Assembly: GCF_005221325.1 (NCBI RefSeq)
Contig: NZ_CP039888.1
Location: forward strand, 2,232,001-2,296,000
DNA length: 64,000 bases
Direction of reading: 5' to 3'
Source of the DNA: Agrobacterium tumefaciens
GTDB taxonomy: Bacteria; Pseudomonadota; Alphaproteobacteria; Rhizobiales; Rhizobiaceae
Within the stretch, counting starts at the first letter, position 1. Each line of letters opens with the position of its first letter. Below are positions 34,854-55,642 of this stretch, piece by piece. The translations under genes were made by a program, and so were the position numbers. Under the pieces are notes generated by a model that was not told the origin of the DNA, made no database searches, and saw nothing but the letters and a program-made list of their open reading frames with translations.

Positions 34854-34856
34854 GGC

Positions 34857-36775: not shown

Positions 36776-38367
36776 GCTTTCTTCGCATCGTGGTAGGAAT
36801 TGCCCTCGGAGAGAACGCCGAGTTCAAAGCCGGAAACGCCCTTGCGGAAGGCAGCCGTCTTCGTCGTCTGGAACATGAACACGAACGGGCTGTTTTCCAT
36901 GTGCTCGCGCTGCAGGGCTTCATAAAGCTCGATGCGCTTTGCCGGATCACGCTCATCGCGAGCGGCTTCCGCCTTGGCGGCGAAGTCGTCGTTCTTGAAA
37001 CGCGAACGCCATAGGAAGGGCTTCGACTTCACGTCGTCGCCATTGTCCTTGTTGATGTTGAAGACATCGGCATTGGAATGCGGATCGAAATAATCCGTGC
37101 CCCATGCGGAAAGCGCCATCTGATGCTCGCGGGCGCGCATCTTGGTCAGAACCTGGCGGTTTTCAGCCGATTGCAGACGCACCTTGATACCGATATCGGC
37201 AAGGTTTGCCTGGATGGCCTGCGCCAAATCCGGATAAGGCTGGGCGGAATAGTGGTCCATGCTGATTTCGAAACCGTCGGCGAGACCGGCTTCCACCATC
37301 AGCGCCTTGGCCTTCTCGACATCGCGCTGATACGGGATGTCGTTGACGGCGCCCGGGAAACCGTCCGGCTCGAAGCTCTGGTGCACTTCATGGGTCAGCG
37401 GCACGATGTTTTCCTGCATGCCCTTGTAGTCCAGCGCCCACTTGATGGCCTGCCAGACCTGCGGCCTGGCAAGGTTCTCATTGCCCTGATTGAGCGAGAT
37501 CAGCACCAGCGAGGCGATGGACTTGCGCTCCAGCTCGATATTGGCATCGTCCTTGACGGTGCGCAGCTGCTCCGAGGTCAGGTCGCGGGCAATGTCGATA
37601 TCGCCCTTCTGCAGCATCAGAAGCTGGGAAGACGGATCGGTGACGTGGCGCAGCACGATACGCTTGATATTGCCCTTGTAAGGACCGTTCGGGTTGACGG
37701 TGAGTGCTACGCTTTCGCTCGGCTTCCAGGCCTGCAGCATGAAATCGCCGGAACCGGCGCTGTTCTTCTGCAGCCAGCCATTGCCGAGGTCTTCGCCCGA
37801 CGCATTGGCAAGAACCGCCTTCTTTTCGACGATCGCACCGATATTGGCGGAGAGGCAATAAAGCAGGAAGGAGATGGCGGTCGGCTTTGCCGTCGTCAGC
37901 TTCACGGTCTTGTCGTCGGCGGCAACGATGGTTGTCTCGGCATTCTCAGGCGTGAAGCCGAACTGGCTGATGATGAAGGCCGGGCTCTTGTTCATCTTGA
38001 TGGCGCGCTGCAACGAGAAGGCAACGTCTTCCGCCGTGACTTTCGCGCCGCTCGAGAAGGTCGCTTCGTCACCGATCACGAAGGTGAAGACCTTGCTGTC
38101 CGCATCGGCTTCCCAGGATTTCGCGATAACCGGATCAACCTTGGTGGAGTCCTCGCGGTTGGCGCGCACCAGCTTCTGATACATGTTCGAGATGATTTCA
38201 CCGCCCACGGCCTCGAAACCTTCATGCGGGTCAAGGCTCGTCATATTGTCCAGCTGCTGGGCAACGACCAGAATGTCCTTGGGTGTCGCGGCAAAGGCCG
38301 GAATGCGCGCATAGGACAGGAACGGAACGGCAGCGCCGGCAATCAACAGGTTGCGTCTTGAAATCAT
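36772..38367 (-). CDS. Peptide ABC transporter, periplasmic binding protein (DppA-like)
   Basis: Family 5 solute-binding protein, 531 aa, that captures the peptide for the permeases. It has a twin-arginine type signal (SRRNLLIAGAAVP) and an AFAATPKD cleavage region near residue 26-28. Mature motifs: EAVGGEIISNMYQKLV, GDFMLQAWKPSESV and the late WRSRFKNDDFAAKAEAARDE. Start ATG 38367 has AAGGGGA 7 bases upstream; a longer frame to 38430 is not supported. First gene of the minus-strand operon 38367-33286. The context of D-specific peptidases suggests D-amino-acid-containing di- or tripeptides as ligand. Confidence 0.93.
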   Translation of the reverse strand: MISRRNLLIAGAAVPFLSYARIPAFAATPKDILVVAQQLDNMTSLDPHEGFEAVGGEIISNMYQKLVRANREDSTKVDPVIAKSWEADADSKVFTFVIGDEATFSSGAKVTAEDVAFSLQRAIKMNKSPAFIISQFGFTPENAETTIVAADDKTVKLTTAKPTAISFLLYCLSANIGAIVEKKAVLANASGEDLGNGWLQKNSAGSGDFMLQAWKPSESVALTVNPNGPYKGNIKRIVLRHVTDPSSQLLMLQKGDIDIARDLTSEQLRTVKDDANIELERKSIASLVLISLNQGNENLARPQVWQAIKWALDYKGMQENIVPLTHEVHQSFEPDGFPGAVNDIPYQRDVEKAKALMVEAGLADGFEISMDHYSAQPYPDLAQAIQANLADIGIKVRLQSAENRQVLTKMRAREHQMALSAWGTDYFDPHSNADVFNINKDNGDDVKSKPFLWRSRFKNDDFAAKAEAARDERDPAKRIELYEALQREHMENSPFVFMFQTTKTAAFRKGVSGFELGVLSEGNSYHDAKKA

Positions 38368-38604
38368 CGAAAATCCCCTTTCGGACCTTATTTTTCGGAA
38401 AATGGTATGGGTCTGCCCCAATCCAGTCATTTTTTTTATGTTTTCCCGCGATTACCACGAGCAAACGAGGCCCGACCAATTCCAAATTTGGCAGAGCCTA
38501 TGCACGGATTGCATTTGCTCCCGCCTTGACCTTTCCTCTACCAATTCCCAAAAGTCTGAATAGGCGCGCATCCGCGCCCTCCCCCTATCCGAAGGTGAAC
38601 GACT

Positions 38605-39645
38605 ATGACCGATGAAAAAACCGTACCCGTCTTCGACGGCCACAACGATGTGCTTCTGCGGTTATGGCGGTCGGGCAATGCCTCTCCCGAAACCCTGCTC
38701 ATCGAGGGTGACACGGTTGGCCACATCGACCTGCCACGCGCCAGGAAGGGTGGGCTGGCCGGCGGCCTCTGCGCCATCTACGTGCCGTCGCCAAGCATGG
38801 AGAAGGATACCAACGGCGATTTTTCGACACCGGCAGAAGCCGACGCGCTGAAGGCCACGCTCGCCATGGCCGGCCTGCTGTTCCGCGCCGAGAAACAATC
38901 CGCCGGCGCACTGAAGGTTTGCCGCACCGCCGCCGATATCCGCAGCGCCATGGCAGAGGGCGCTTTTGCCTCCGTCTTCCATATCGAGGGCGCGGAAGCG
39001 ATCGGCGCCGATCTGGATGCGCTGCATGTGCTCCACGAGGCGGGCCTTCGCACGCTCGGACCAGTCTGGAGCCGCCCGAACATCTTCGCTTACGGCGTTC
39101 CCTTCCGTTTCCCCTCGACACCGGATATCGGCCCGGGCCTGACGGATGCCGGCAAAAGGCTGGTAAAAACCTGCAACGAGCTGAAGATCATGGTCGATCT
39201 CTCGCACATGAACGAACAGGGCTTCTGGGATATCGCCAAGATATCAGACGCGCCGCTGGTGGCATCGCACTCCAACGCTTACGCGCTGTGCAATCACAGC
39301 CGCAACCTCACGGACCGCCAGCTGGACGCCATCCGTGATACGGGCGGCCTTGCCGGCATCAACTTCGGCGTGCTGTTCCTGCGTCAGGACGGCGTGAAGA
39401 ACCCGGATACCGATCTTGGCGAACTCGTCCGCCATGTGGATTACATCGTCAACCGCATCGGCATCGATCATGTCGCGCTCGGTTCGGATTTCGACGGCAC
39501 CACCATTCCCGCCGCCATGAAGGATGCGGGCGATCTGCAATTGCTGGTCGAAGCCCTGCGCAAGGGCGGTTATGACGATGAGGCGTTCAACAAGATCTGC
39601 CACGGCAACTGGATCCGTGTGCTGGAAAAAACCTGGGGCGCGTAA
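38605..39645 (+). CDS. Membrane dipeptidase family (peptidase M19)
   Basis: Binuclear zinc dipeptidase; the family tolerates a D-residue at the C-terminal position. Metal ligands are in place: His13 and Asp15 in DGHND, bridging Glu128 in FHIEGAE, His201 in DLSHMNE, His222 in VASHSNAYAL, and Asp295 in LGSDFDGTT. 346 aa, no signal peptide, so probably cytoplasmic. It is divergent from the dppA-like gene with 237 bases between, and should hydrolyse the imported dipeptides. Confidence 0.93.
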   Translation: MTDEKTVPVFDGHNDVLLRLWRSGNASPETLLIEGDTVGHIDLPRARKGGLAGGLCAIYVPSPSMEKDTNGDFSTPAEADALKATLAMAGLLFRAEKQSAGALKVCRTAADIRSAMAEGAFASVFHIEGAEAIGADLDALHVLHEAGLRTLGPVWSRPNIFAYGVPFRFPSTPDIGPGLTDAGKRLVKTCNELKIMVDLSHMNEQGFWDIAKISDAPLVASHSNAYALCNHSRNLTDRQLDAIRDTGGLAGINFGVLFLRQDGVKNPDTDLGELVRHVDYIVNRIGIDHVALGSDFDGTTIPAAMKDAGDLQLLVEALRKGGYDDEAFNKICHGNWIRVLEKTWGA

Positions 39646-39663
39646 GGCAAAAGGTAAGTTTCA

Positions 39664-39686
39664 TCTCCGGCGCCCGGCGCCGGAGA
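39664..39686. terminator. Perfect hairpin between converging genes
   Basis: TCTCCGGCGCC and GGCGCCGGAGA pair perfectly around a single C between the dipeptidase stop and the stop of the small gene on the other strand. There is no T-run on either side, so it is a possible but not typical bidirectional terminator. Confidence 0.45.
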
Positions 39687-39704
39687 CATGAAAGCGGCGG
39701 GCCC

Positions 39705-39998
39705 TTAAGGCTTTGCCGCTTTTTTCTTGCCGGTCGCCCGAAAGGCGAGAAGCCCGGCGACAAGGCTGACCATCGCCCATTTCATCGGCAACAGATCCGC
39801 CGTCTCGCTGCGGATCGGCAGCACGGTCACGGTGCCGGGACGGGATTCATAACCCATCTGCCCTTTCGCCTTTGCCTCGGCGATCTGTTGCGGAGAAACC
39901 ACCCATTCGGCACCGCGCGTCTTATCCACCGTCATGTACCCGCCACCAGCAACAAGGGCGAGTGCGAGCGAAACAACTATTCTTGTGGGCATGTTCAT
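39705..39998 (-). CDS. Small membrane protein of unknown function, 97 aa
   Basis: I do not recognise it. There is a hydrophobic N-terminal segment (about 5-22, TRIVVSLALALVAGGGYM) and a second hydrophobic segment near the C-terminus (about 71-85), joined by a polar, probably periplasmic linker, and a basic tail (GKKKAAKP). ATG 39998 is preceded by AAGGAG with 6 bases spacing; two upstream and downstream ATG codons are alternatives. It is monocistronic. Confidence 0.65.
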   Translation of the reverse strand: MNMPTRIVVSLALALVAGGGYMTVDKTRGAEWVVSPQQIAEAKAKGQMGYESRPGTVTVLPIRSETADLLPMKWAMVSLVAGLLAFRATGKKKAAKP

Positions 39999-40274
39999 TG
40001 GCATCTCCTTCAATCGAAAGGAGCGTGTAGTTGCATCAAATGACACCACCAGGCAACCGATACGATCAATTTTCTCGTCTTTTTACCAGCCTCGGAAATC
40101 TCACATTTCCTAGTTGCATTTTCGCCGTTACACTTGGCAAACTCATCGAGGCTGGAGGCAAACTTCACATCGACACGTCACGCATTTCTGCTAAGCAAAT
40201 TTCCTCAACCGAAACGAATTAGCGACACAATCCTGTGGTTCGCCAACCAACGGGACCGGCGCTGGAAAAAGTAA

Positions 40275-42875
40275 ATGGCAGACAAGAGCGAAGTTATAGA
40301 GACGGATATTATCGACTCCCCGGTTGAAAGCTTTTTTGCCAGAAACCGGCCCTATCTGACGGCCATTGCGATAACGCTCATCTTCGTGATGATGACGTTC
40401 GCGATTTACCGTCTCACGTCGGAAGTACGATATGACGATGTGATCGCGGCTCTTCTTGGCACGTCGTTTTCAGCTGTTCTGCTCGCCATCGTCTTTACGG
40501 CACTGAGCTTCCTGTCGCTGATTTTCTACGATGCGAATGCCATCGAATATGTCGGCAAAAAAGTCCGTTTTCCGTCGATGGCGGCCACGGCCTTTGCGGC
40601 CTATGCCATCGGCAATACGGCCGGCTTCGGTCCGCTGAGCGGCGGCGCCATCCGCTTCCGCGCCTATTCCCGGCTCGGCCTCTCGCCGGGGGATATCGCC
40701 CGCGTCATCGCCTTCGTCACCCTGTCGTTCGGCCTCGGGCTTCTCTCCGTCAGCGCGCTTTCAACCTTCATCGTCGCGCCGCGCATCGCCGCGATCATCG
40801 GTTTCGATCCGCTGGTACTGAGAGGCGGAGCACTTGCCGTCATCGCCATCCTTGTGATCACCGCCTATATCGGCCGCAACGGCAAGGCGATCCGGCTCGG
40901 CAAATGGCAGCTGCGCCTTCCCGACAGCCGCACATCGTCACGCCAGTTCCTGGTGTCCGCCTTCGATATCGCTGCATCCGCCTCCGTTCTCTATGTGCTC
41001 CTGCCGGAAACCCATCTCGGCTGGCCGACCTTCTTCGCGATCTATGCCACGGCCGTCGGCCTCGGCGTGCTCAGCCATGTCCCCGCAGGCCTCGGTGTCT
41101 TCGAAACCGTCATGGTCGCGGGTCTCGGCAATGCCATCAGCGTCGATCAGCTGCTCGGAAGCCTCGTTCTTTATCGCGTCATCTACCACGTCCTGCCGCT
41201 GGTGGTTGCCATTCTGGTCATGATCGTTTCCGAAACGAAGCAGTTCGCGGCCAAGCCGGTGGTCTCTGATATCAGCCAGCTTGCGGTCAGGCTCGCACCG
41301 CCGCTGCTCTCCACCTTCGCGATCATTCTCGGCACCATGCTGATTTTTTCGAGCGTGACGCCGACGCCGGACAGCAACCTCGATTTCCTCTCGAATTTCG
41401 TGCCGTTGCCGATCATCGAAGCCGCCCATTTTCTGACCAGCATTCTCGGCCTCGGCCTCGTCGTCGCCTCCCGCGGCCTCGGGCAAAGACTTGATGGAGC
41501 CTGGTGGATCGCCCTCATTGCGGCCTCTCTTGCCCTCATCCTCTCCATCCTTAAGGCCATCGCGGTCTTCGAGGCGGTATTCCTCGGCATCTTCATCGCC
41601 GCACTCGCCCTCAATGTGCGCAGCTTCAACCGGCACGCCTCACTGGTCAAACAGGCGCTGGGACCAAGCTGGCTCGCGGCAATGGCCGTCATCATCGCTG
41701 GCGCGGCTACCATCCTCCTGTTCGTCTATCGTGATACCGATTACAGTCACGCATTGTGGTGGGAATTTGAGTTCTCCGAAGAAGCCCCCCGCGGGCTGCG
41801 CGCCCTGCTTGGTCTGGTGCTCGCTTCCTCGACCGTCGCAATTTTCAGCCTGATGCGGCCGGTCACCTTCAAGCCGGATTCCATCCAGCCGGAGGACGTG
41901 GAACGCGCCACCGACATCGTCATGCGACAGGATTCGGCCGACGCCAATCTGGTGCGCATGGGCGACAAGCATGTGATGTTTTCCGAAAGCGGCAATGCCT
42001 TCATCATGTACGGCATCCAGGGCCGCTCGTGGATCGCCTTTGCCGACCCCGTCGGCGACGAGGAGGATTTTCCTGACCTCGTCTGGCAATTCGTGGAAGC
42101 CGCCCGCGGAGCCGGCGCCCGCGCCGCCTTCTACCAAATTTCGCCCTTCCTTCTCTCCCATTGCGCCGATGCAGGCTTGCGCGCCTTCAAGCTCGGCGAG
42201 CTGGCGCTGGTTGATCTCACCGCCTTCGAACTGAAAGGCGGCAAGCTTGCCACCCTTCGCCAGTCGCTGAGCCGCGGCGCGCGCGACGGCCTCACTTTCG
42301 AGGTTATCGAGCGATCGCAGGTGCCCGATATCATGGATGAGTTGCAGCAGGTCTCCGACGGCTGGCTTGCGCACCACAATACGCGGGAAAAGCGCTTCTC
42401 GCTCGGCGCTTTCGAGCCTGATTACATTCTGTCGCAACCCGTCGCCGTGCTGCGCAAGGACGGGAAAATCACCGCCTTCGCCAATCTGATGGTGACGGAG
42501 ACAAAAAAGGAAGCGACCATCGATCTCATGCGTTTTTCGGCGGATGCGCCGCGCGGCTCGATGGATTTCCTCTTCGTCAGCATCATGCAGCATCTGCGCG
42601 AGGCGGGATATGAAAGCTTCAATCTCGGCATGGCGCCCATGTCCGGCATGTCGAAGCGCGATGCCGCACCCGTCTGGGACCGTATCGGCAGCACGCTCTT
42701 CGAGCATGGCGAACGTTTCTACAACTTCAAGGGACTTCGCGCCTTCAAGGCAAAGTTCCACCCGAAATGGGAACCGCGTTACCTTGCCGTGCAGAACGGC
42801 GCAGACGCCGCTTTGGCGCTGATGGATGCAACGGTTCTGATCAGCGGCGGCGTTAGAGGAGTGATCGGAAAATGA
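40275..42875 (+). CDS. lpiA: Lysyl-phosphatidylglycerol synthase/flippase MprF (LpiA)
   Basis: Transfers lysine from lysyl-tRNA to phosphatidylglycerol and flips the product, lowering the negative surface charge. The 866-residue protein has a large membrane part (about 27-515, roughly 14 helices, containing AIGNTAGFGPLSGGAIRFRAYS) and a C-terminal acyltransferase-like domain (about 540-850) with ALVDLTAFELKGGKLATLRQSL (location) and SFNLGMAPMSGM, KAKFHPKWEPRYLAV. It is followed by acvB with a four-base overlap (ATGA). In rhizobia and Agrobacterium this pair is acid-induced; no specific operator could be recognised in the 276 bases upstream (39999-40274). Confidence 0.95.
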   Translation: MADKSEVIETDIIDSPVESFFARNRPYLTAIAITLIFVMMTFAIYRLTSEVRYDDVIAALLGTSFSAVLLAIVFTALSFLSLIFYDANAIEYVGKKVRFPSMAATAFAAYAIGNTAGFGPLSGGAIRFRAYSRLGLSPGDIARVIAFVTLSFGLGLLSVSALSTFIVAPRIAAIIGFDPLVLRGGALAVIAILVITAYIGRNGKAIRLGKWQLRLPDSRTSSRQFLVSAFDIAASASVLYVLLPETHLGWPTFFAIYATAVGLGVLSHVPAGLGVFETVMVAGLGNAISVDQLLGSLVLYRVIYHVLPLVVAILVMIVSETKQFAAKPVVSDISQLAVRLAPPLLSTFAIILGTMLIFSSVTPTPDSNLDFLSNFVPLPIIEAAHFLTSILGLGLVVASRGLGQRLDGAWWIALIAASLALILSILKAIAVFEAVFLGIFIAALALNVRSFNRHASLVKQALGPSWLAAMAVIIAGAATILLFVYRDTDYSHALWWEFEFSEEAPRGLRALLGLVLASSTVAIFSLMRPVTFKPDSIQPEDVERATDIVMRQDSADANLVRMGDKHVMFSESGNAFIMYGIQGRSWIAFADPVGDEEDFPDLVWQFVEAARGAGARAAFYQISPFLLSHCADAGLRAFKLGELALVDLTAFELKGGKLATLRQSLSRGARDGLTFEVIERSQVPDIMDELQQVSDGWLAHHNTREKRFSLGAFEPDYILSQPVAVLRKDGKITAFANLMVTETKKEATIDLMRFSADAPRGSMDFLFVSIMQHLREAGYESFNLGMAPMSGMSKRDAAPVWDRIGSTLFEHGERFYNFKGLRAFKAKFHPKWEPRYLAVQNGADAALALMDATVLISGGVRGVIGK

Positions 42876-44242
42876 TGAAACGCAATCTGATAGGGGCATT
42901 CATTGCCGCTTCGACGCTACTCTCCTCATCTGTCGCCTTTTCTCAGGATAAGCCGGCTTATGAAACCGGCATGATCCCCGCCGACCACATCATGGTGCCT
43001 GATGGAGATATCCAGGCCAGCATTTTCCTCATCTCCGATGCCAATGGCTGGACGGATGCCGATGAGACCCTCGCCAAGGCGCTTGTCGAAAAAGGCGCCG
43101 CCGTCGTCGGCATCGACTTCAAGGAATATCTGAAGGCGCTCGAAGCCGATGACGACGAGTGCATCTACATGATCTCGGACATCGAGTCGCTGTCGCAGCA
43201 GATCCAGCGCACCGCCGGCACCGGCAGCTACCGCCAGCCGATCCTGACCGGCATCGGCAAGGGCGGCACGCTTGCGCTCGCCATGATCGCGCAGAGCCCG
43301 GTTTCCACCGTGCGGGAAGCGGTGGCGGTGGACCCGAAGGCGGGCCTGCCGCTGGAAAAGATTCTCTGCACCCCCGCAACCAAGGACAAGGTGGATGGTG
43401 AAACCGTCTACGGCCTCACCGATGGCCCCCTGCCGGCACCGGTCAGCGTCATCTTCACCCCTGACGCCGACCAGAAGGGCCGCGACCACGTCAACGCGCT
43501 CGTAAAACTGCATTCCGACATCGAGGTGACCGACGTTACCGACAAGGCGGACGAGGTGCTGACGCAGACGCTGTCCGACAAGGTCGATGCGGCCGGAGAC
43601 AGCGACAACCCGCTCGGGCTCCCGATCACGGTTCTGGAAGCCAAACCTGTCATGGACACAATGGCGGTGATCTATTCCGGTGACGGCGGCTGGCGCGATC
43701 TGGACGAAGAAGTCGGCAGCGCCCTTCAGAAGCAGGGTGTGCCGGTCATCGGCGTCGATGCCCTGCGATATTTCTGGAAAGAGAAGGAACCGAAGGAAGT
43801 GGCGAGCGACCTCGCCCGCATCATCGACACCTATCGCAAGGAATGGAAAGTCCGCAATGTGGTGCTGATCGGTTATTCCTTCGGCGCCGATATCATTCCC
43901 GCCACCTACAATCTCCTGCCCGACCGGGTGAAATCATCCGTTGCGCAGCTTTCGCTGCTCGGCCTTTCCAACGAAGTGGATTTCGAAATCTCCGTTCAGG
44001 GATGGCTAGGCGTGGCCGGTGAAGGCAAGGGCGGCAAGACCGTCGATGACATCGCCAAGATCGACCCCAAGCTGGTGCAATGCGTTTATGGCACCGAGGA
44101 GGAAGATGAGGACCCCTGCCCCGGCCTCAAGGCCAAGGGTGTCGAAACCGTCGGCATCGAAGGCGGACACCATTTCGACGAGGATTACGAGGCGCTCGCC
44201 AAACGCATCGTCGCGTCGCTGAAAACCAGACTGGCGAAATAA
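42872..44242 (+). CDS. acvB: AcvB/VirJ-type lysyl-phosphatidylglycerol hydrolase
   Basis: Periplasmic hydrolase that removes lysine from lysyl-phosphatidylglycerol, the counterpart of LpiA; in A. tumefaciens AcvB is needed for virulence through the T-DNA secretion system. Residues 1-24 form a signal peptide (LIGAFIAASTLLSSSVAFSQ). Two related alpha/beta-hydrolase halves: in the N-terminal half the elbow reads GIGKGGT, and in the C-terminal half (about 250-456, the part shared with VirJ) it is the catalytic GYSFGAD with nearby YSGDGGWRDLDEEVG and terminal His in EGGHHFDEDY. 456 aa. Confidence 0.95.
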   Translation: MMKRNLIGAFIAASTLLSSSVAFSQDKPAYETGMIPADHIMVPDGDIQASIFLISDANGWTDADETLAKALVEKGAAVVGIDFKEYLKALEADDDECIYMISDIESLSQQIQRTAGTGSYRQPILTGIGKGGTLALAMIAQSPVSTVREAVAVDPKAGLPLEKILCTPATKDKVDGETVYGLTDGPLPAPVSVIFTPDADQKGRDHVNALVKLHSDIEVTDVTDKADEVLTQTLSDKVDAAGDSDNPLGLPITVLEAKPVMDTMAVIYSGDGGWRDLDEEVGSALQKQGVPVIGVDALRYFWKEKEPKEVASDLARIIDTYRKEWKVRNVVLIGYSFGADIIPATYNLLPDRVKSSVAQLSLLGLSNEVDFEISVQGWLGVAGEGKGGKTVDDIAKIDPKLVQCVYGTEEEDEDPCPGLKAKGVETVGIEGGHHFDEDYEALAKRIVASLKTRLAK

Positions 44243-44442
44243 CCCGCCACAACCGGCGCACAGGCAGCATATTAGAGGCTGTACCCGTAGTTCCCGCTGG
44301 CAGTGAAGCTTGCGGAATCGATCAAACTATTATTCAAAAGAAACCGGCCTGCGGCGAATGTTCATCCCATTCCCGCAACCGTTCTGTCGTTGATCGCCAA
44401 CCATGGATTTTATATTTCCGGACCGGTTCAGGGAGCCGCCGC

Positions 44443-45771
44443 ATGCTCGCCGCAAAACGAAAAACAAAAACACCGGTCCTCGTGGAACGCATCGATCAAT
44501 TCGTCAGCCAAGTCAAAGCGGCGATGAAAGGTGACGACGCTTCGCGAAACAGGAAAATCCGCGATCTGTGGGATGCCGAGGTCCGCTACCATTTCGATAA
44601 TGGCCGCACGGAAAAGACGCTCGAACTTTACATCATGAAATATCGCAATGCGCTGAAGGCCGAATTCGGCCCAAAGAGCACCCCGCTTGCCATCTGCAAC
44701 ATGAAGAAGCTGCGCGAGCGGCTGAACACCTATATTGCCCGGGGAGATTATCAGAAGACAGGCGTGGCGACATCGATTGTCGAAAAAATCGAACGGGCGG
44801 AATTCAACACCGCCGGCCGCAAGCCCACGGTTCTTCTTCGCATTGCCGATTTTATTGCCACGATGAACGGCATGGGCGCAAAGGAGGACATGCAGTCCTT
44901 GTGGGACGCCGAAATCGCCATCATGAAGGGCCGGGCCCAGACGACGATCATTTCCTACATCACCAAATATCGAAACGCCATCCGCGAGGCCTTCGGTGAC
45001 GACCATCCGATGCTGAAGATCGCCACCGGCGATGCCGCGATGTATGACCAGGCACGCCGGGTGAAGATGGAGAAGATCGCCAACAAGCACGGCGCGCTCA
45101 TTACATTTGAAAACTACCGGCAGGTTCTGAAGATCTGCGAGGATTGCCTCAAGTCCAGCGATCCCCTGATGATCGGCATCGGCCTCATCGGCATGACGGG
45201 ACGCCGCCCCTATGAAGTCTTCACCCAGGCGGAGTTTACACCTGCCCCCTATGGCAAGGGCATCTCCAAATGGAGCATCCTGTTCAACGGCCAAGCCAAG
45301 ACGAAACAGGGTGAGGGCACGAAATTCGGGATCACCTATGAAATTCCGGTCCTGACGCGCTCCGAAACCGTACTGGCTGCCTATAAGCGCCTGCGCGAAA
45401 GCGGACAGGGAAAGTTATGGCATGGCATGTCGATCGACGATTTTTCCTCGGAAACCCGCCTGCTGTTGCGCGACACGGTTTTTAACCTGTTCGAGGATTT
45501 CTGGCCGAAGGAAGAACTTCCCAAGCCCTATGGCCTCAGACACCTCTATGCCGAAGTTGCCTATCACAATTTCGCGCCGCCCCATGTGACCAAGAACAGC
45601 TATTTCGCCGCCATTCTCGGTCACAATAATAACGACCTCGAAACGTCGCTGTCCTATATGACCTACACGCTGCCGGAAGACCGCGACAATGCGCTAGCGC
45701 GCTTGAAGCGGACCAATGAGCGGACATTGCAGCAAATGGCGACAATCGCGCCGGTGTCCCGCAAGGGATGA
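44443..45771 (+). CDS. telA: Telomere resolvase (protelomerase) TelA
   Basis: Cuts replicated telomere junctions and reseals them as covalently closed hairpins, maintaining a linear replicon. The 442-residue length equals that of C58 TelA. The tyrosine-recombinase-type active site is complete at the published positions as I recall them: Arg255 (MTGRRPYEVF), Lys286 (NGQAKTKQG), Arg366 (YGLRHLYAEVAYH), His394 (ILGHNNND) and the nucleophile Tyr405 (SLSYMTY). The N-terminal region has an internal duplication (about 39-76 and 150-185) with LWDAE and KYRNA in both. Start ATG 44443 has GGGAG upstream. It follows acvB after 200 bases in the same direction. The target telomere is not in the window. 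Confidence 0.95.
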   Translation: MLAAKRKTKTPVLVERIDQFVSQVKAAMKGDDASRNRKIRDLWDAEVRYHFDNGRTEKTLELYIMKYRNALKAEFGPKSTPLAICNMKKLRERLNTYIARGDYQKTGVATSIVEKIERAEFNTAGRKPTVLLRIADFIATMNGMGAKEDMQSLWDAEIAIMKGRAQTTIISYITKYRNAIREAFGDDHPMLKIATGDAAMYDQARRVKMEKIANKHGALITFENYRQVLKICEDCLKSSDPLMIGIGLIGMTGRRPYEVFTQAEFTPAPYGKGISKWSILFNGQAKTKQGEGTKFGITYEIPVLTRSETVLAAYKRLRESGQGKLWHGMSIDDFSSETRLLLRDTVFNLFEDFWPKEELPKPYGLRHLYAEVAYHNFAPPHVTKNSYFAAILGHNNNDLETSLSYMTYTLPEDRDNALARLKRTNERTLQQMATIAPVSRKG

Positions 45772-45817
45772 TGCGCCAGCCGCGGATTTTCAGTCGCACG
45801 GCCAGCGCTTTTGTTCG

Positions 45818-47104
45818 TCAAACCCGCGCGTCGCCCGATGTGCGGTAAAGCAGGGTCAATATCGTGAGCATCAGCCCAACGAGCGCGACCGAGCCGAAAA
45901 TGTAGAAATTCCACTCCGGCGCCAGGCCCCGTTGCAGCACCAGTCCGCCGATCATCGGACCGGCAATGCCGCCCAGCCGCCCGACCGCCAGCGAAAAACC
46001 GAGACCCGTGCCGCGAATATGGACGGGATAAAGCCGCCCGACCAGAACATTGGCGAGAATCTGGGTTCCGATGGTGCCGGCACCCGCAAGGGCCACGAAA
46101 GCATAAAGAAGCGGACCCTTGTTGACAGTGAGGGCGAAGATCGATGCAGCACCGACGGCAAAGAGGACTGCCACCACCACCTTGACGTTGCCCTTGTCCG
46201 CAAAGCGTCCGCCGATAAGGATACCAATCGCGGCGCCGACATTCAGCATGACGGAGAAGCTGAGCGCCGAGCTGATGTCATAGCCCATCTTGTTCATGAT
46301 GGTGGGCAGCCAGTTGACCATGCCGAAGGTGAGCAGCAGCGAGCAGAAGTGAATGCCCCAGGCATTCAGCGTCGAAACCAGCCGGCCTTCAGAAAACAGC
46401 GCGCCGACGCCGCCCTTCTGGATCTTTGCATGGGGCACGATGCGTTGCAGGCCATAAGTGTCGCAAATGCCGTCAGCCTCCGCCTGCCGACCCTTGCTCG
46501 CCAGCCACTCCGGCGATTCCGGCAGGAACCGCATGAAGATTGGCAGCAGGATGAGCGGCAAGCCGCCGATCAGCATCAATGGCCGCCAGCCATAGGTCTC
46601 CAGAAGCAATATGCCCATGAGGCCGGAAATGATGCCGCCGATGAGGTAACCGAGGAAGGACAGGGAATTGGCCTGCGCCCTGCGCTGCGGCGGCGAAAAC
46701 TCCAACACCAGTGCGGTAACCGTCGGCAACAATGCGCCCAGTCCGAGGCCGGCGAAAAAGCGGGTGATTTCGAAGGCAAGAAAATTCGGCGTCATGGCCG
46801 AGGCGATCATCATCGCCGAAAATCCGGCGAGGCTTAAGAGAACCACCTTCCGGCGGCCGATACGGTCGGCCATGGTGCCGGCAAACAGTGCGCCGAGCAG
46901 CATGCCCACCAGCGTCAGCGCCGCGGCACGCCCGACCATAGCCGGGTTTAAGGCCCAGGCGCTTTCTTTCAGAAGCGCCGGTGCAACCGCGCCATAAACG
47001 ACCAGATCGTAACCGTCGAACATGATCATCAGGCCGCATGTCGCGATGACGCCGGCCGGGTTCTTCGTCCGCACGGAAGCGGCGCTCAGATAATTCGTGG
47101 ACAT
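45818..47104 (-). CDS. graK: MFS aromatic acid:H+ symporter, probably gamma-resorcylate uptake
   Basis: AAHS-family inner-membrane carrier with 12 helices. The aromatic-acid signature FDGYDLVVYGAVAP in TM1 and GTMADRIGRRKV in loop 2-3 are present. Start ATG 47104 has GGGAGG upstream (428 aa). It lies at the end of a gamma-resorcylate gene set and has its own upstream operator-like palindrome at 47265-47285, identical in type to that of graR-graD, so it is probably induced with the pathway. Other hydroxybenzoates are possible substrates. Confidence 0.9.
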   Translation of the reverse strand: MSTNYLSAASVRTKNPAGVIATCGLMIMFDGYDLVVYGAVAPALLKESAWALNPAMVGRAAALTLVGMLLGALFAGTMADRIGRRKVVLLSLAGFSAMMIASAMTPNFLAFEITRFFAGLGLGALLPTVTALVLEFSPPQRRAQANSLSFLGYLIGGIISGLMGILLLETYGWRPLMLIGGLPLILLPIFMRFLPESPEWLASKGRQAEADGICDTYGLQRIVPHAKIQKGGVGALFSEGRLVSTLNAWGIHFCSLLLTFGMVNWLPTIMNKMGYDISSALSFSVMLNVGAAIGILIGGRFADKGNVKVVVAVLFAVGAASIFALTVNKGPLLYAFVALAGAGTIGTQILANVLVGRLYPVHIRGTGLGFSLAVGRLGGIAGPMIGGLVLQRGLAPEWNFYIFGSVALVGLMLTILTLLYRTSGDARV

Positions 47105-47264
47105 ATTCCTCCCTTTCACGCATGAACGCGCCATCCGGAATGGATCAGCGTCTCCCCGTCCCTGCATTATCCTCCGTGAGTGCCCGGCTTGCTCCACCCT
47201 GATATGTGCCTTGCTTCTGTCAAGCCACATGTTGCCGATATCACTCGTCGTTAATTAAATGTTG

Positions 47265-47285
47265 CATTTGCAAAAATTGCAAATG
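47265..47285. promoter_or_regulatory. Perfect palindrome CATTTGCAA-N3-TTGCAAATG, candidate GraR operator (graK side)
   Basis: Two 9-base arms match exactly around AAA. It lies 160 bases upstream of the graK start in an AT-rich gap between graE and graK. The arm CATTTGCA recurs inverted in the graR-graD promoter (52489-52515). Confidence 0.65.
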
Positions 47286-47324
47286 AAATATTGATAAATG
47301 CCAATCGCCGAACGATGGCTGAAA

Positions 47325-47663
47325 TCAGCGGGGTTCCAGTCCGGAAATCATCGACAGCGTCGGCGTCCAGTTCAAAATACGAATGCGACTATAGACCCCG
47401 TGGACAACGAAGGGATCGGCGTCGCTGAAGGCGATGACATCATCAAGAGAACGCGCCTCGGCGATGATGAGTGCTGCGGTTGGACCGCCGTCACCCGCGC
47501 TCATCGGGCCGGACACAAGGATACGAAACCCTTCGGCCATCACATTGCCGTTGCGTAAATGAGCCTTGTGCGCCTCCAACTGCGCCACCCGCTGCTGCGT
47601 GGCATCGGGATCGCTTTCGGCAAACCGCACAAAAAGCCGGGATTGGTTGCCGTCCCCGTTCAT
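47325..47663 (-). CDS. graE: YciI-family protein of the gamma-resorcylate cluster
   Basis: Small dimeric ferredoxin-like-fold protein (112 aa) of the YciI/muconolactone-isomerase-like group; its function in the pathway is unproved. Features are the N-terminal SRLFVRFAESDPDA, AHKAHLRNG and the C-terminal ADPFVVHGVYSRIRIL, where the family keeps an active-site-like Asp and His. It overlaps the graB stop by four bases. The name follows the published gra gene order in Rhizobium sp. MTP-10005. Confidence 0.8.
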   Translation of the reverse strand: MNGDGNQSRLFVRFAESDPDATQQRVAQLEAHKAHLRNGNVMAEGFRILVSGPMSAGDGGPTAALIIAEARSLDDVIAFSDADPFVVHGVYSRIRILNWTPTLSMISGLEPR

Positions 47664-48547
47664 CGAGCGAGTACGAAATCGTGGTTCACGGACCAGAACC
47701 AGTCGCCAACGAAACCCAATTCCTGCGCCTTCTGCTGATCCTCCACCCGCTCAAAATTCGCCAGCAGGCTTTCCTTCACGCCGAAGACGGCGTCCGAACG
47801 GATATAGGGATCGCCGGGATCGAAGATATGGGTCACGAGCGTGGTGAAGCTCTCGGCCGAAACGATATAGTGCAGATGCGCGGGCCGGTAAGGATGCCGC
47901 CCCATTGCCCGCAACAGCCGCCCCACCGGGCCGTCATCCGGTATGGGGTAATATTTGGGTTTCGCCGCCCGGAACCAGTATCGCCCATCCTCCCCGGTGA
48001 CGAAGACGCCGCGCAGGTTGAAATCGGGCTGGATGCCCTTCTGCTGCACGTCATAAAAGCCTTCATCATTGGCCTGCCAGACATCGATGCGCGCACCGGC
48101 GACTGGCACCCCTTCGGTATCGAGAATGCGGCCGGTGACGACCATATCCTCTCCCTTGCCATCGAGACAGATATTGGCGCCCATCGGCATTTCCGGCGCA
48201 TCGGCCACATGGAAAGGGCCGAGAACGGTGGATTCCGACGCGCCGCTGGGCTTGCGGTGGTTTATGGCGTCGACCAGCATGGAGGCACCGAGAATATCGG
48301 AAAACAGGATCCACTCCTGCCGCCACTCGTTGCATATCTGGCCAACCTCGGTGAGGAAGTGGATGGCCTTCATCCATTCCTCCTCGGTCGGCTCGATTTC
48401 CTTCACCGCCTCGTGCAGCTTGCGGGTCACGACCGCCATGATCTCCTTCAGGCGCGGATCGTCACAATCGCGCATGCGGGCAATCACGGTTTCGGCCGAG
48501 CGTTCCTCGACGAAATAGCCGTCGTCAACAGTCATCTTCATATCCAT
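47660..48547 (-). CDS. graB: Hydroxyquinol 1,2-dioxygenase (intradiol)
   Basis: Opens 1,2,4-trihydroxybenzene to maleylacetate using non-heme Fe(III). The ligands are visible: Tyr165 (EGFYDVQ), Tyr200 (KYYPIPDDGPVG), His224 and His226 (RPAHLHYIV). 295 aa, with the N-terminal helical dimerisation domain (about 1-105) of the catechol/hydroxyquinol dioxygenases. The neighbouring maleylacetate reductase supports hydroxyquinol rather than catechol as substrate. Confidence 0.93.
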   Translation of the reverse strand: MDMKMTVDDGYFVEERSAETVIARMRDCDDPRLKEIMAVVTRKLHEAVKEIEPTEEEWMKAIHFLTEVGQICNEWRQEWILFSDILGASMLVDAINHRKPSGASESTVLGPFHVADAPEMPMGANICLDGKGEDMVVTGRILDTEGVPVAGARIDVWQANDEGFYDVQQKGIQPDFNLRGVFVTGEDGRYWFRAAKPKYYPIPDDGPVGRLLRAMGRHPYRPAHLHYIVSAESFTTLVTHIFDPGDPYIRSDAVFGVKESLLANFERVEDQQKAQELGFVGDWFWSVNHDFVLAR

Positions 48548-48559
48548 AGGCTCCTCCCA

Positions 48560-49615
48560 TCAGTCCGGCCGTGCGCCCTCGAAGGCGCGCTGCAGCAGGC
48601 AGCGGATCGCGGTTTTTTCAATCGGTCGCGGGCACCAGTAAGGATTGGACGTCGCAAGCTCGGCCATGGGGTCGAGATCGTCAGCGCCGACGCCAAGGGC
48701 AGCCAGGCTTGAAGGCGCACCGAGCCGCGCTGCAACATCGAAAAGCCCCGCCCCCGCACGACCTCCAACCAGCACAGCCAATGGCGCGAGCAAATCCGGC
48801 GCGGCCTCTTCCACATAAGCGATGGTGTGCGGCAGAAGCACCGCATGGGTTTCAGCGTGCGGCAGATCGAGACTGCCACCCAGCGTGTGACAAAGCTTGT
48901 GATGTAGCGACATGCCGACCGCACCCAGCACCGTGCCGCAAAGCCACGCGCCATAAAGTGCCGTCTCACGCGCGCCAATATCCTGCGGCGCAACCCGCAC
49001 GGCCGGAAGCGCCTCGATCATCGCCCGCAGCCCTTCCACCGCCATCAGGCTGGTAATCGGGTTACGATCCCGCGCATAAAGCGCCTCCGCCGCATGCGCC
49101 ATGGCGTTGAGGCCACTCGTCATGCTGATCGAGACGGGCAATCCAAGTGTCAGTTCAGCATCATAGATCACCACTTCCGGCAGGATTTCCGGCCCGCGCA
49201 TGGTGGTCTTCACGCCATTTTCCGTCTGGCCGAGAATGGGTGTGACTTCCGAGCCGGCGTAGGTGGTTGGAATGACGATCTGCGCCGCACCGGTGCGCAG
49301 AGCGATAGCCTTGCCAAGGCCGGTGGTCGAGCCGCCGCCGAGCGCCACGACGCAATCCGCACCGGCAGCGCGATAGGCTTCCACCGCGTTTTTCGTCACC
49401 TCGACCGGCGTATGCATGGCCGCATCGGAGAAGACACCGGCGGCAAGCCGGCCGAGCCGGGCGGCAAGCGCCTCTGCGTCACCCTTTTGCTGCGGGGTGG
49501 ACAGCACCAGCGCCCGCGAGAGGCCGAGGCGGCGGATTTCCTCCGCCACATCTGCCGAGCTGCCCGTGCCGAACACGATGCGGGCCGGGGCCGCCATATA
49601 GACGAAAGGCTGCAT
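48560..49615 (-). CDS. graC: Maleylacetate reductase (iron-type alcohol dehydrogenase family)
   Basis: Reduces maleylacetate to 3-oxoadipate with NAD(P)H, linking the pathway to the TCA cycle. 351 aa; N-terminal Rossmann-like part with VALGGGSTTGLGKAIAL and IPTTYAGSEVTPI, then a helical domain with HHKLCHTLGG and LPHAETHAVLLPHT. The usual iron-ADH metal ligands are partly lost, as in other maleylacetate reductases. It starts right after graF (3 bases). Confidence 0.93.
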   Translation of the reverse strand: MQPFVYMAAPARIVFGTGSSADVAEEIRRLGLSRALVLSTPQQKGDAEALAARLGRLAAGVFSDAAMHTPVEVTKNAVEAYRAAGADCVVALGGGSTTGLGKAIALRTGAAQIVIPTTYAGSEVTPILGQTENGVKTTMRGPEILPEVVIYDAELTLGLPVSISMTSGLNAMAHAAEALYARDRNPITSLMAVEGLRAMIEALPAVRVAPQDIGARETALYGAWLCGTVLGAVGMSLHHKLCHTLGGSLDLPHAETHAVLLPHTIAYVEEAAPDLLAPLAVLVGGRAGAGLFDVAARLGAPSSLAALGVGADDLDPMAELATSNPYWCPRPIEKTAIRCLLQRAFEGARPD

Positions 49616-49618
49616 GGT

Positions 49619-50602
49619 TCAGCGCCCGTCGAGCTTGAACAGGCGGCGCGCATTGGTGCGGCCGATCTTCACCCGGTCAGCCTCGGCGATGCTCGTCGCA
49701 TGGAACCAGTCGGAGGCATGGTCGATATTCTCGAAGGGCCAGTCGGTGGAGAACAGGATGCGATCCGCACCGATTTCGAGAATGGCATCGATCAGCGTCT
49801 GGGTGCGGAAATTGCCCGAGGTGGTGATGTGGAAGTTTTCGTTGAAATAATCCACAAAACGGCGCTTGGCCGGATAACGCGGCGGCAGCTTCACCCAGGC
49901 GTTACGGTGGTCGATACGCCACATCATGTAGGGCAGGCCCTCGCCCATATGGCCGAGAATGATGTTGAGGCGCGGGTGTTCATCGAACAGGCCCGACGCC
50001 ATGAGGCGCAGCGCATGTACGGCCGTTTCCTGCGCAAAGGCCCAGGTGGGGCCGAGCAGCCATGGATGGCCGTCATAGATGCGGGAATCCTGCGGCAGCG
50101 GGTTGCGCGGATGCAGGTAAAACGGCACGTCGAGTTTTTCCACCTCACCCCAGAAGGGGCGATATTGCGGCAGGTCGTAATAAAGCGGCGTCTGGCCGTC
50201 ACCCTCCTGACTGAAACCGTTGACGAGCGCACCGACGAAACCGAGATCGTTGACGCAGCGCTGCAATTCCTCCGTCGCCGCATCCGGGTCCTGCAAAGGC
50301 AGCGCGGCAAAGGCGAGGAAACGATCCGGCCGCTTGGCGCATTCTTCGGCCAGCGCATCATTAGCACGCCGCGCGATCTCGATTGCCTTGGTCTTGTCGG
50401 GAATGGCCTGCACCGCCGGGGCATTCAGCGACAGGATCATGGTTTCGATGCCATGCGCATCCATCAGCTTCAGGCGCGTATCCTGAATGTCGAGCAGGCG
50501 GTGCTGCAATTCCGTCCAGTAATCGCCGGGCACGAAACCGGCCGAATCCTGAAGTGTTTCCGGGATTGCGAAATGCTCCTCGAGAGCGACCTTGCCTTGC
50601 AT
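49619..50602 (-). CDS. graF: Gamma-resorcylate decarboxylase (amidohydrolase superfamily)
   Basis: Non-oxidative, reversible decarboxylation of 2,6-dihydroxybenzoate to resorcinol. The 327-residue length equals that of the Rhizobium enzyme, and the metal and catalytic residues are at the positions I recall for it: Glu8 and His10 (ALEEHF), His164 (FYLHPRNP), His218 (ILGHMGEG) and Asp287 (FSTDWPFE). This is the diagnostic gene of the cluster. Related 2,3-dihydroxybenzoate or salicylate decarboxylases are possible but the neighbours point to resorcinol. Confidence 0.93.
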   Translation of the reverse strand: MQGKVALEEHFAIPETLQDSAGFVPGDYWTELQHRLLDIQDTRLKLMDAHGIETMILSLNAPAVQAIPDKTKAIEIARRANDALAEECAKRPDRFLAFAALPLQDPDAATEELQRCVNDLGFVGALVNGFSQEGDGQTPLYYDLPQYRPFWGEVEKLDVPFYLHPRNPLPQDSRIYDGHPWLLGPTWAFAQETAVHALRLMASGLFDEHPRLNIILGHMGEGLPYMMWRIDHRNAWVKLPPRYPAKRRFVDYFNENFHITTSGNFRTQTLIDAILEIGADRILFSTDWPFENIDHASDWFHATSIAEADRVKIGRTNARRLFKLDGR

Positions 50603-50648
50603 GTAGTTTCCTCCGAAATTCGCTGTTGGTTTGCCGCCTGAGTGGCGA

Positions 50649-51878
50649 TCAATATTGGCCCTTGGGTTCGAGGCCGAGCATGCTCTGGCCGATCATCGTG
50701 CCCACGGCATCCCAGTTCATGCTGATGTGACGGCCGACCGCATTGGCATCCCGCCAGGCGCGCTGCACCGGGTTCGCCAGATCGAGCCCGACGCCGCCGG
50801 TGGAATCGTTCAGCGCCTGCACCGCACGCAACGAGAGCGACACGGCAAAGGACTGGCCGCGACGGCTCGAAAGGCGGTCATCCACCGTAAATTCCGCCCG
50901 GCCTTCGATCCGGGCCTGCGCCAGCGCCTGAGCGCGCGAGACGTCGCGCAGCAAGATTTCGCAGGCGGCATCAACACTCGCCGCCGCTTCCGCGACGCGC
51001 AGCTGGATGGTCGGAAATTCCGCCATGCGGTTGTTACCACCCGCCACCGCGCCGCGTGTGACCCGGCCGCCGACATGATCGACATAGGCGGCAAGCGCGC
51101 CCTTGGCCGCGCCGACGCCGGCCGCCGCGAGACAGGAGGGGATGCCGGTCAGAAGCGGCATGTTGAACAGACCCTCTTCCGCATAATATCGTCCGCCGGG
51201 CGTGTGGCCGCTGGTGGCGTCTGGAAAGGTCAGGACCCGGTGCCCAGGCACAAAGACGTCATCGAGAACCAGCGTCTTCGACCCCGTGCCGGCCAGCCCC
51301 ACGACATGCCAGGTGTCTTCGATGACATATTCGCTGGAAGGAACGAGCAGAAAGGCGGGAACCGGTTTTCCTTCACCCGTTGGCGGCAGAATGGCGGCGC
51401 AGAGAGACCATTGCGCGTTCTCGCAGCCGGAGGCGAAGGCCCATTTGCCGCTGAGGCGATAACCGCCATCGGCAGCCTCCGCCATCTTCACCGGCGCATA
51501 GGAACCACACAGCAGCGCGTCGGGATTTTCACCCCAGACATCGGCCTGCGCCTCTTCGGGAAACATGGCCAGCAGCCACTGATGGGCAGACAGCAGGCCG
51601 GCGACCCAGCCCGTCGACGCACAGGCCGCCGAAAGCTCGATATTGGCTTCCACCAGCTCGGCGAAATCGCCACCCTTGCCGTCGAAGGCACGGGGCTTAA
51701 CGATATCGAAATAACCGATGTCCCGCAGCGCCTCGATATGGCTGGCGGGCACGCGCCGCGCCTCCTCCGTCTGTCTGGCGCTTGAGCGGAAAAGATCGGC
51801 TATGCCGGCAACGCGGCTGGCAAGGCAGGCATGCGGGTTCGTTTGCGCCGGCTGCGGCGCATGGCTCATGTCGTTCAT
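50649..51878 (-). CDS. graA: Resorcinol hydroxylase, oxygenase component
   Basis: Flavin-dependent monooxygenase with an acyl-CoA-dehydrogenase fold that hydroxylates resorcinol to hydroxyquinol using reduced flavin from GraD. 409 aa; blocks include GYFDIVKPRAFDGKGGDFAELVE (location 53-75), ACASTGWVAGLLSAHQ, SGKWAFASGCENAQW and the C-terminal GGVGLDLANPVQRAWRDANAVGRHI region. ATG 51878 has AAGGAGA 6 bases upstream. Placed between graD and graF. Confidence 0.9.
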   Translation of the reverse strand: MNDMSHAPQPAQTNPHACLASRVAGIADLFRSSARQTEEARRVPASHIEALRDIGYFDIVKPRAFDGKGGDFAELVEANIELSAACASTGWVAGLLSAHQWLLAMFPEEAQADVWGENPDALLCGSYAPVKMAEAADGGYRLSGKWAFASGCENAQWSLCAAILPPTGEGKPVPAFLLVPSSEYVIEDTWHVVGLAGTGSKTLVLDDVFVPGHRVLTFPDATSGHTPGGRYYAEEGLFNMPLLTGIPSCLAAAGVGAAKGALAAYVDHVGGRVTRGAVAGGNNRMAEFPTIQLRVAEAAASVDAACEILLRDVSRAQALAQARIEGRAEFTVDDRLSSRRGQSFAVSLSLRAVQALNDSTGGVGLDLANPVQRAWRDANAVGRHISMNWDAVGTMIGQSMLGLEPKGQY

Positions 51879-51914
51879 GATTGTCTCCTTGCGGGAATGA
51901 TCTACCGCTGAAAT

Positions 51915-52454
51915 TCAGACGGGTTCGTGCGCGGGGCTTGCGGCGCAATATTGAGCGTTCTCGTAAAGCAGCGGCCGTGTCGTCTCGCTGACATCGGCCG
52001 ACACTACCTGTCCGATGAAGACGGTATGGGTTCCATAGGGCATGGCCGCAACCCGGCGGCAGGCGATGGCGGCATGAGCCGTGGGCAGGTAAAGAACGCC
52101 ATTATCGTGGCGCTGCCAGCTGCCGTCGCGGAAACGCTCCTCCGGCGGCACCTTGCCGCTGAAGCCATCCGAAAGCGCGATCTGGTCCTGCGTCAGCACG
52201 TTGACGATGAAATCGGGCCGGCACAGCAGCAATTCATGCAGCAGAGTCCGATTATTCAGGCAAACCAGCAGAGAAGGCGGCTCCATCGAGACCGAGGTGA
52301 CGGCCGTCACCGTCATGCCATGGTCGCGCTGATCACCGGCGGCGCAGGCGGTGATGACCGTCACGGTTGCCGGAAAACGGCGCATCGTCGAACGGAAATT
52401 CTGACCGACGCCTTCAGGCGCAAGGCCGCTCAGGCCAAACAATGCTGATGTCAT
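51915..52454 (-). CDS. graD: Flavin reductase component of resorcinol hydroxylase
   Basis: NADH-dependent flavin reductase (179 aa) that feeds the GraA oxygenase. Flavin-reductase-like signature: STMRRFPATVTVITACA, then TAVTSVSMEPPSLLVCLNNRT and the C-terminal THTVFIGQVV segment. ATG 52454 follows GGGAGG. First gene of the minus-strand operon graD-A-F-C-B-E and divergent from graR. Confidence 0.9.
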   Translation of the reverse strand: MTSALFGLSGLAPEGVGQNFRSTMRRFPATVTVITACAAGDQRDHGMTVTAVTSVSMEPPSLLVCLNNRTLLHELLLCRPDFIVNVLTQDQIALSDGFSGKVPPEERFRDGSWQRHDNGVLYLPTAHAAIACRRVAAMPYGTHTVFIGQVVSADVSETTRPLLYENAQYCAASPAHEPV

Positions 52455-52488
52455 GAGATCCTCCCAAATCCTGAAATCTTTTTATTTT

Positions 52489-52515
52489 CATTTGCAATAT
52501 TTGTCAATGCAAATG
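52489..52515. promoter_or_regulatory. Inverted repeat CATTTGCA-N11-TGCAAATG, candidate GraR operator (graR-graD)
   Basis: Perfect 8-base arms in the AT-rich gap 35 bases upstream of graD and 143 bases upstream of the graR start. It shares its arms with the 21-bp palindrome before graK. MarR-type regulators bind this kind of symmetric site; assignment to GraR is inference. Confidence 0.6.
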
Positions 52516-52657
52516 TTTTTCGTCATTTTATGTGGCCGGGGACCCTGCCATTCCCCGGCGTTGTGGAGCGAAGCTATTGAAACGGATGGATTGTGCCGGT
52601 ACAGCCATAGGCACACATCGGCATCTGTGCAGATGGTTCTCAAACGGGGATTTGCTC

Positions 52658-53089
52658 GTGTCTTATCACTTCACCGACTCAGTACCTTACCTACTCAACT
52701 GGGTGGGCGTTCGGCTGGGCGAGCGTTTTTCCGTGAGGCTGACGTCCTATGACATCACGCTGCCCATGTACCGCGTGCTGGCGACGCTGCGGCAACAGGA
52801 AAGCAAGACGCTGACCGAGCTTTCAGACATGGTGTCGGTAGAAATTTCCACGCTCTCGCGGCTGGTGGGACTGATGGTGCGGCGCAATCTCGTCAGCCGC
52901 GAGCGGCCGGCCGACAACGCCCGCATCGTGCGCATCACCCTGACGGCAAAGGGCGAGGAACTTGCCGACGAGCTCATGCCCATCGCGGCCATGTTCGAAA
53001 AAACCGCGATCGAAGGCCTGGACCCGGCCGAGGTGAAGCTTTTCAAGAGCATCCTGCGCCATATCGGCCTCAATATCGCCGGTCTCTAA
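52658..53089 (+). CDS. graR: MarR-family regulator of the gamma-resorcylate cluster
   Basis: Winged-helix dimer of 143 aa; the recognition region is KTLTELSDMVSVEISTLSRLVGLMVRR (location about 49-75) with the wing at RPADNARIVRITLTAKG. Start GTG 52658 has GGGGA 7 bases upstream and gives normal MarR length; an ATG at 52532 would add an unlikely 42-residue tail. It is divergent from graD, and the shared palindromes suggest it represses graD-E, graK and itself until an aromatic ligand binds. Confidence 0.88.
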   Translation: MSYHFTDSVPYLLNWVGVRLGERFSVRLTSYDITLPMYRVLATLRQQESKTLTELSDMVSVEISTLSRLVGLMVRRNLVSRERPADNARIVRITLTAKGEELADELMPIAAMFEKTAIEGLDPAEVKLFKSILRHIGLNIAGL

Positions 53090-53140
53090 ACGGCCCACAT
53101 TCGGAAAATGCGGGCCGCCATGATCGGCAGAGATTTCGGC

Positions 53141-53548: not shown

Positions 53549-53589
53549 GTTGCATTATCCTGATGTGTTTGAGAATGAGGTTTTCATCG

Positions 53590-54162: not shown

Positions 54163-54175
54163 GCTCGACCCTCGC

Positions 54176-54715: not shown

Positions 54716-54912
54716 TTGGATTTCCTTTCATTGCCGTTTGCCGGACGAGACAAGGCGGCTCATTCCGCCTCCATCCGGAAAGGCGGGCCGCAATTTCCAA
54801 AATCTTTGACGGCTTTCACAAAGCGGACGCCGACTGCGCCCGGGCTATGAGACGATGAACAGGTTTGAACGCACGCTCTGCGCACGGGTGGGGGCGGCTC
54901 TCCAGGAGGTCG

Positions 54913-55604: not shown

Positions 55605-55642
55605 CAGCAGAATATGGGAAATAAAACCAGCGTCAATCCTTA

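Follow-up and report, generated by a model that had tools for sequence, protein, structure and literature searches.

An intact telA telomere resolvase gene and a putatively linear chromid with hairpin-type ends in Agrobacterium tumefaciens

The linear-chromosome and telA state of the genus Agrobacterium is reportedly known from Ramirez-Bahena 2014, and the state of TelA in the genus is likewise said to be known from Huang 2012. The ResT enzyme of Borrelia and the phage enzymes TelK and TelN perform the same reaction as TelA and share its PF16684 catalytic domain (ResT-TelK_cat). In C58 TelA, as given in the available part of PMC3558466, the active site comprises Arg255, Lys286, Tyr363, Arg366, His394 and Tyr405, with Tyr201 and Arg205 as the residues that refold the DNA; the site of TelA cleavage is TCATGA, the six-base self-complementary overhang of the crystallised C58 telomere. 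The presence of telA was interpreted as indicating a linear chromosome or chromid already in 2015 (PMC4408340), and a linear chromosome in 2016 too (PMC5081363, in the portion available), and a chromosomal telA has been published for biovar 1 (PMC13293297). Linear plasmids of the pLin13.3 type in the Rhizobiaceae share the enzyme class and hairpin ends with the system analysed here, but their protelomerase is plasmid-borne and shares 67.3% identity with its chromid counterpart in the same strain, and their long terminal repeats have no detectable homology to chromid ends according to the accessible portion of PMC13293297.

The telA gene of the window and its relatives

The stretch of DNA analysed (the window; 64,000 nucleotides) is G000:C1:2232001-2296000, where G000 is the source assembly of six contigs; G and C numbers denote genomes and their contigs. 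Directly upstream of telA are two genes that we, like the preliminary description, take to be lpiA and acvB, since Pfam gives only the families PF09924 and PF06057 and not these names. The features are:

40275..42875, + strand: lpiA-like phosphatidylglycerol lysyltransferase (PF09924), a neighbour outside the telomere system
42872..44242, + strand: acvB/virJ-type protein (PF06057), a neighbour
44443..45771, + strand: telA, complete telomere resolvase (protelomerase), 442 aa (ATG-start ORF, phmmer, Pfam)
44443..44760, + strand: TelA N-terminal domain, residues 1-106, the ssDNA-annealing domain in C58 TelA (limits from the available part of PMC7861564)
45112..45666, + strand: ResT/TelK-type catalytic domain PF16684, residues 224-408 (Pfam)
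45655..45657, + strand: codon of the nucleophile Y405 (alignment position; role from the available parts of PMC3558466 and PMC7861564)
45818..47230, - strand: MFS transporter, a neighbour (Pfam)
15992..62301, no strand assigned: lpiA-acvB-telA segment, largely collinear with G035:C2:1259677-1303221 (sequence comparison)

The window gene is an intact Agrobacterium telomere resolvase, TelA, with predicted enzyme activity. The preliminary description had claimed a complete protein of 442 residues with five active-site positions intact, and the ORF, phmmer, Pfam and residue positions agree with this: R255, K286, R366, H394 and Y405 are all present at those positions, Y363 is also intact, and the refolding residues Y201 and R205 are kept. 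The protein matched C58 TelA (4DWP) across residues 1-442 (phmmer against PDB chains; E=1.2e-293), and PF16684 scored 134.3 bits against a cut-off of 27. An alignment with crystallised C58 TelA, which the preliminary description had proposed as a check, gave a full-length match between two proteins of the same length, with the same catalytic and refolding residues and 14 differences (428/442 residues identical), 5 of which lie within residues 1-106.

Twelve catalytic, refolding and DNA-contact positions did not vary across the telA loci of 25 named relatives, and the same positions were identical in 30/30 genus loci, the window's own included (these 30 were fetched out of the 38 genomes with a match and overlap in strains with the 25 named loci). 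The TelA proteins of Agrobacterium rubi, A. larrymoorei and A. rosae have 67-69% identity to the window protein and the same invariant residues. Pairwise dN/dS for telA was 0.068 against G007 and 0.062 against G035, and such values of 0.06-0.07 point to purifying selection. In G026 and G027, telA has an in-frame stop at residue 441, the extreme end of the protein. A promoter and terminator scan around telA gave approximately what shuffled sequences give. The ssDNA annealing activity of C58 TelA is described as separable in the available part of PMC7861564, which would fit a TelA that serves here chiefly in another role, through its N-terminal domain, with telomere resolution incidental. We consider this hardly conceivable, because the active-site residues for resolution are invariant in 55 loci (overlapping in strains) and cognate telomeres are present in the genome (see below), and we retain telomere resolution as the role of the enzyme.

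The preliminary description had also presented protelomerases as very rare in cellular genomes. In this genus TelA is no rarity, since telA was found in 38/39 genomes, this one included (the exception is G025). The family also extends beyond Agrobacterium, Borrelia and phages. Distant TelA relatives, with 25-37% identity, occur in 13 plasmid records (8/13 annotated 'protelomerase family protein') from Xanthobacter, Paracoccus, Phaeobacter, Shinella, Rhizobium, Agrobacterium deltaense, Chondrocystis, Leptolyngbya, Borrelia and others, and the catalytic family was matched in a control genome of Synechococcus elongatus. In the PDB search, Borrelia ResT matched only residues 238-427 of the window protein (E=1.8e-7), and TelK and TelN were not among the matches; a search of 50,697 phage records gave no match to TelA. 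Besides its chromosomal telA, G013 has ten more matches on C6 and C7, the best 43% and 40% identical; some of these are fragments or contain an internal stop, and we read them as divergent protelomerases.

Telomeres of contig C2 and of the genus

Contig C2 of G000 (2,301,325 bp) carries repC, with RepC near the middle at 1,197,232. Perfect palindromes occupy its two ends, one of 40+40 in the first 80 bases and one of 65+65 in the last 130 bases; each has TCATGA at its centre and runs to the terminal base of the contig. These palindromes look like assembly from reads running round a closed hairpin; such reads are described for an Agrobacterium chromid and linear plasmids in the available part of PMC13293297. 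No perfect palindrome longer than 7+7 bp was centred in the outer 400 bases at the other ten contig ends of G000, and no end-to-end inverted repeat longer than 15 bp was found between the outer 1.5 kb in the other five contigs. The 14-base half-site (up to 1 mismatch) has four occurrences in the whole G000 genome, which are the two arms of each C2 end. Since the reversed control of this pattern matched twice in G000, the half-site alone is weak evidence, and the weight lies on the palindromes at the contig ends. The preliminary description had expected a linear replicon in this genome and had proposed a search of the assembly for paired hairpin telomeres. In agreement, a TelA-type hairpin read-through palindrome was found at each end of C2, from which we infer that C2 is physically linear. 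Closure of C1 and C3-C6 is suggested by a start codon at the contig start, with dnaA just behind it in C1 and RepC ∼2.5 kb into C3, C4 and C6.

Fold-backs occur in long-read assemblies, and the C2 palindromes could be artefacts of this kind. The alternative to a linear C2 is that the palindromes are such fold-backs or ordinary inverted repeats, that C2 is circular or fused to C1, and that telA is a relic. Fused linear dicentric chromosomes are reported for some C58 stocks and natural isolates in PMC12153318, the available text of which contains no telomere or TelA terms. Against fold-backs, both C2 ends have one core centred on TCATGA, their first 13 bases are the same as those of the pattern-found ends of relatives, G007:C2 begins and finishes exactly at the identical tip, and the half-site is found nowhere else in the G000 genome. 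Purifying selection on telA argues against a relic. Therefore, we regard this alternative as very unlikely and favour a linear C2 with hairpin telomeres.

Both G000 telomeres read ACGATTGATCG, and the left end of G007 reads ATGATCGATCG. G007 is probably C58, since its TelA differs from the window TelA at the 14 positions where the PDB chain does (by eye). As in G000, its telA is on the dnaA contig adjoining lpiA-acvB and its telomere is centred on TCATGA. Compared with the C58 left end, half-site positions 15 and 19 are changed in both G000 telomeres; the position-15 change occurs alone in NZ_CP074397.1 and the position-19 change alone in G001:C55.

Two patterns detected telomeres in 15/39 genomes of the genus, the first in 6 genomes including G000 and the second in 14 without G000, which it missed because the last base of its half-site differs. 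For the second pattern, 27/31 matches fall in the outer 140 bp of a contig and the other four are inside palindromes: two at the exact middle of G014:C26, which is palindromic over all 1,500 bases tested per side, and two within a 72+72 palindrome of G012:C62. The reversed control of the second pattern matched in 0/39 genomes. Neither pattern had a match in 24/39 genomes of the genus, the nearly complete G006, G016, G023, G026, G027 and G035 among them, and in some of these no-match genomes C2 begins tens to ∼200 bases short of the tip (by eye). The first 13 bases, TGATATTGTTATT, are identical in 14 aligned ends, which were themselves found by searching that sequence, and the G008 telomere has TGATACTGTTATT. 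A looser pattern (14 bases, 1 mismatch) was applied to 15 genomes and hit internal positions of G008:C2 and G035:C1 as well; since its reversed control had matches in 4/15 genomes, single half-sites found in this way mean little. At one contig end of G017 (G017:C20:25-138), two complete TelA palindromes lie 84 bp apart, representing a tandem telomere or an assembly artefact.

Judged by the outermost few hundred bases, the chromid ends of biovar 1 form two sequence classes, corresponding to the left and right ends of G007. G007, G017 and G032 have one left-class and one right-class end each. G000 has the right class at both C2 ends, which are 77.6% alike over 237 bp. Farther in, the two ends share inverted stretches of 4,603 bp (99.1% identical; at 3.1-7.7 kb on the left, counted from the tip, and at 6.1-10.7 kb on the right) and of 1,769 bp (97.6% identical). 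This sharing suggests exchange between the chromid arms, which is a known kind of event, given the ∼33-kb terminal repeat reported for another strain (PMC13293297). Near the C2 ends is a gene that we read as HipA-like, the right copy of which is shorter (187 aa vs 413 aa).

The home replicon of telA

C1 of G000 (2,949,438 bp) has a full dnaA match at 427-912, and a second, weak match to the dnaA family is present on C2. RepC had seven matches in G000: single strong ones on C2, C3 and C4, a strong one and a weak, broken one on C5, and two on C6; the search of all six contigs gave none on C1. As telA is on the dnaA contig and the linear replicon is C2, TelA would act in trans. The preliminary description had arrived at a circular-chromosome location and action in trans from the lpiA-acvB neighbours. 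The location of telA on the dnaA contig C1, with the telomeres on C2, supports this claim, but the argument from the neighbours fails, because the same lpiA-acvB-telA trio is also found on a repC contig without a full dnaA match, the chromid contig, in four relatives (G008, G010, G038 and G035). The neighbours thus do not tell the replicon.

Of 15 genomes checked, 10 have telA and the full dnaA match on one contig (G000, G006, G007, G013, G016, G023, G026, G027, G032 and G034), and four have telA on a different contig (G008, G010, G035 and G038), which carries RepC in each case; the fifteenth, G025, has no telA. lpiA and acvB adjoin telA in 24/25 named loci and in G007, G008, G010, G035 and G038; they were not found within the 20 kb read near telA of G023. 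In A. rubi, A. larrymoorei and A. rosae, lpiA-acvB are nearby, with ∼1.3 kb between acvB and telA, and in the three assignable assemblies (G008, G010 and G038) telA is, unlike in G000, on a repC contig without a full dnaA match. These replicon assignments agree with the available part of PMC13293297, in which the protelomerase gene belongs to the circular chromosome in biovar 1 and is chromid-borne in rubi sub-clade members.

In G035 (TelA 95% identical), window positions 15,992-62,301 correspond to a ∼44-kb block of the chromid contig, and the sequence left of this telA block is on the dnaA contig. That left flank maps to the chromid contig of G010 and to the chromosome contigs of G007 and G023. 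The right flank (62400-64000) was barely matched in the relatives compared (only 134-147 bases in G007, G017 and G023; no match in G035 or G010) and is therefore uninformative on telA relocation. A scaffolding error at the only N run in the 400 kb read of G035 (1,107,501-1,112,500) was rejected as the cause of the telA placement there, as this run lies 147 kb from the block; an assembly error at the contig level could still lie behind it.

Judging from the sequences, the intact TelA encoded on C1 almost certainly resolves the palindromic telomeres of the linear repC chromid C2 in trans. By extension from work on C58 TelA, a TelA dimer would bind the replicated telomere, in which TGATATTGTTATT half-sites flank TCATGA, and Tyr405 would cut each strand, with the cuts 6 bp apart. 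The cut strands would each be folded back and then resealed, so that the inverted dimer chromid arising from replication is separated into two linear molecules, each sealed by hairpins at its ends. In this way, the enzyme from one replicon would work in trans upon the other.

A possible second linear replicon in G001

G001 (probably A. arsenijevicii KFB 330; a short-read draft of 74 contigs) has four distinct TelA-type contig ends, on C1 and C17 (left class) and on C55 and C61 (right class). A whole-genome search gave one TelA match, on C45, with lpiA and acvB beside telA. No TelA homologue was found on C1 or C55, and C61 had only a 31-residue match (E=0.8), in a search that a very divergent enzyme could escape. 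C1 (105,935 bp) has repABC 6.5-10 kb from the telomere (RepC by match; RepA and RepB read from ORFs), and a TraA-like relaxase lies towards the opposite end. The C1 RepC shares 42-50% identity with the four remaining RepC of G001 and has <60% identity to every one of 2,370 matching records among 72,556 plasmid records; in 394 family genomes none was found at E<=1e-160, an empty result that carries no weight for want of a positive control. Two traits of pLin-type plasmids differ here: no protelomerase of its own was found on C1 (a replicon not assembled end to end), and instead of terminal repeats unrelated to chromid ends, the C1 and C55 ends fall into the two chromid end classes. At the turn of the C1 hairpin (position 44/45), the sequence is TCTTGA rather than TCATGA, which is either a non-palindromic loop or an error.

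On the simplest reading, G001:C1 may be a second linear replicon resolved in trans by the chromosomal TelA. The ResT of Borrelia serves many linear DNAs per cell. The TelA telomere could then be a portable module, such that a repABC plasmid of G001 without its own protelomerase gained a left-type telomere at one end and a right-type telomere at the other, and a single TelA serves two linear DNAs per cell; we put this forward tentatively, being slightly more doubtful than convinced. It counts against a second replicon that the second end is not joined to C1 and that the genome is a short-read draft with a reported contamination of 2%. A 1.4-kb stretch of C1 resembles the G000 chromid ends at 75.6%, and the TraA-like stretch matches the G000 chromid at 65%, ∼15 kb from its right tip, so that the presence of the relaxase is not sufficient to identify C1 as a plasmid. 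In the open-access literature searched, we found no earlier report of an extra replicon served in trans by TelA.

Two plasmid records were considered and rejected as linear plasmids. CP135083.1 (pr2, A. pusense AAL, filed circular) has an internal TelA palindrome with one noisy arm; alignment of the two arms over 8,034 columns shows 89% identity and 679 gaps, and its telomere matches that of G014 at 99.3% over 1,516 bp. An internal TelA palindrome is also present in NZ_CP074397.1 (pDG3-1d, A. salinitolerans, filed linear), where the read-through arm measures 13.6 kb (98.2% identity, 232 gaps); the left end showed no telomere pattern, and neither TelA nor the single set of RepA, RepB and RepC used as queries gave a match. 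Each of these records could be a chromid-end fragment deposited as a plasmid, although pDG3-1d shares a TraA-like stretch with G001:C1 at 85-87%, and neither was therefore counted as a linear plasmid.

In conclusion, the observation of telA in the window and the main inference drawn from it are right, but describe the known state of the genus: this is one more genome with a textbook Agrobacterium feature, and one in which the assembly can display hairpin telomeres directly. The home replicon of telA is not fixed and can be the chromosome or the chromid, mostly with lpiA-acvB adjoining. If the reading of G001 is true, this strain could test how a bacterial plasmid becomes linear.
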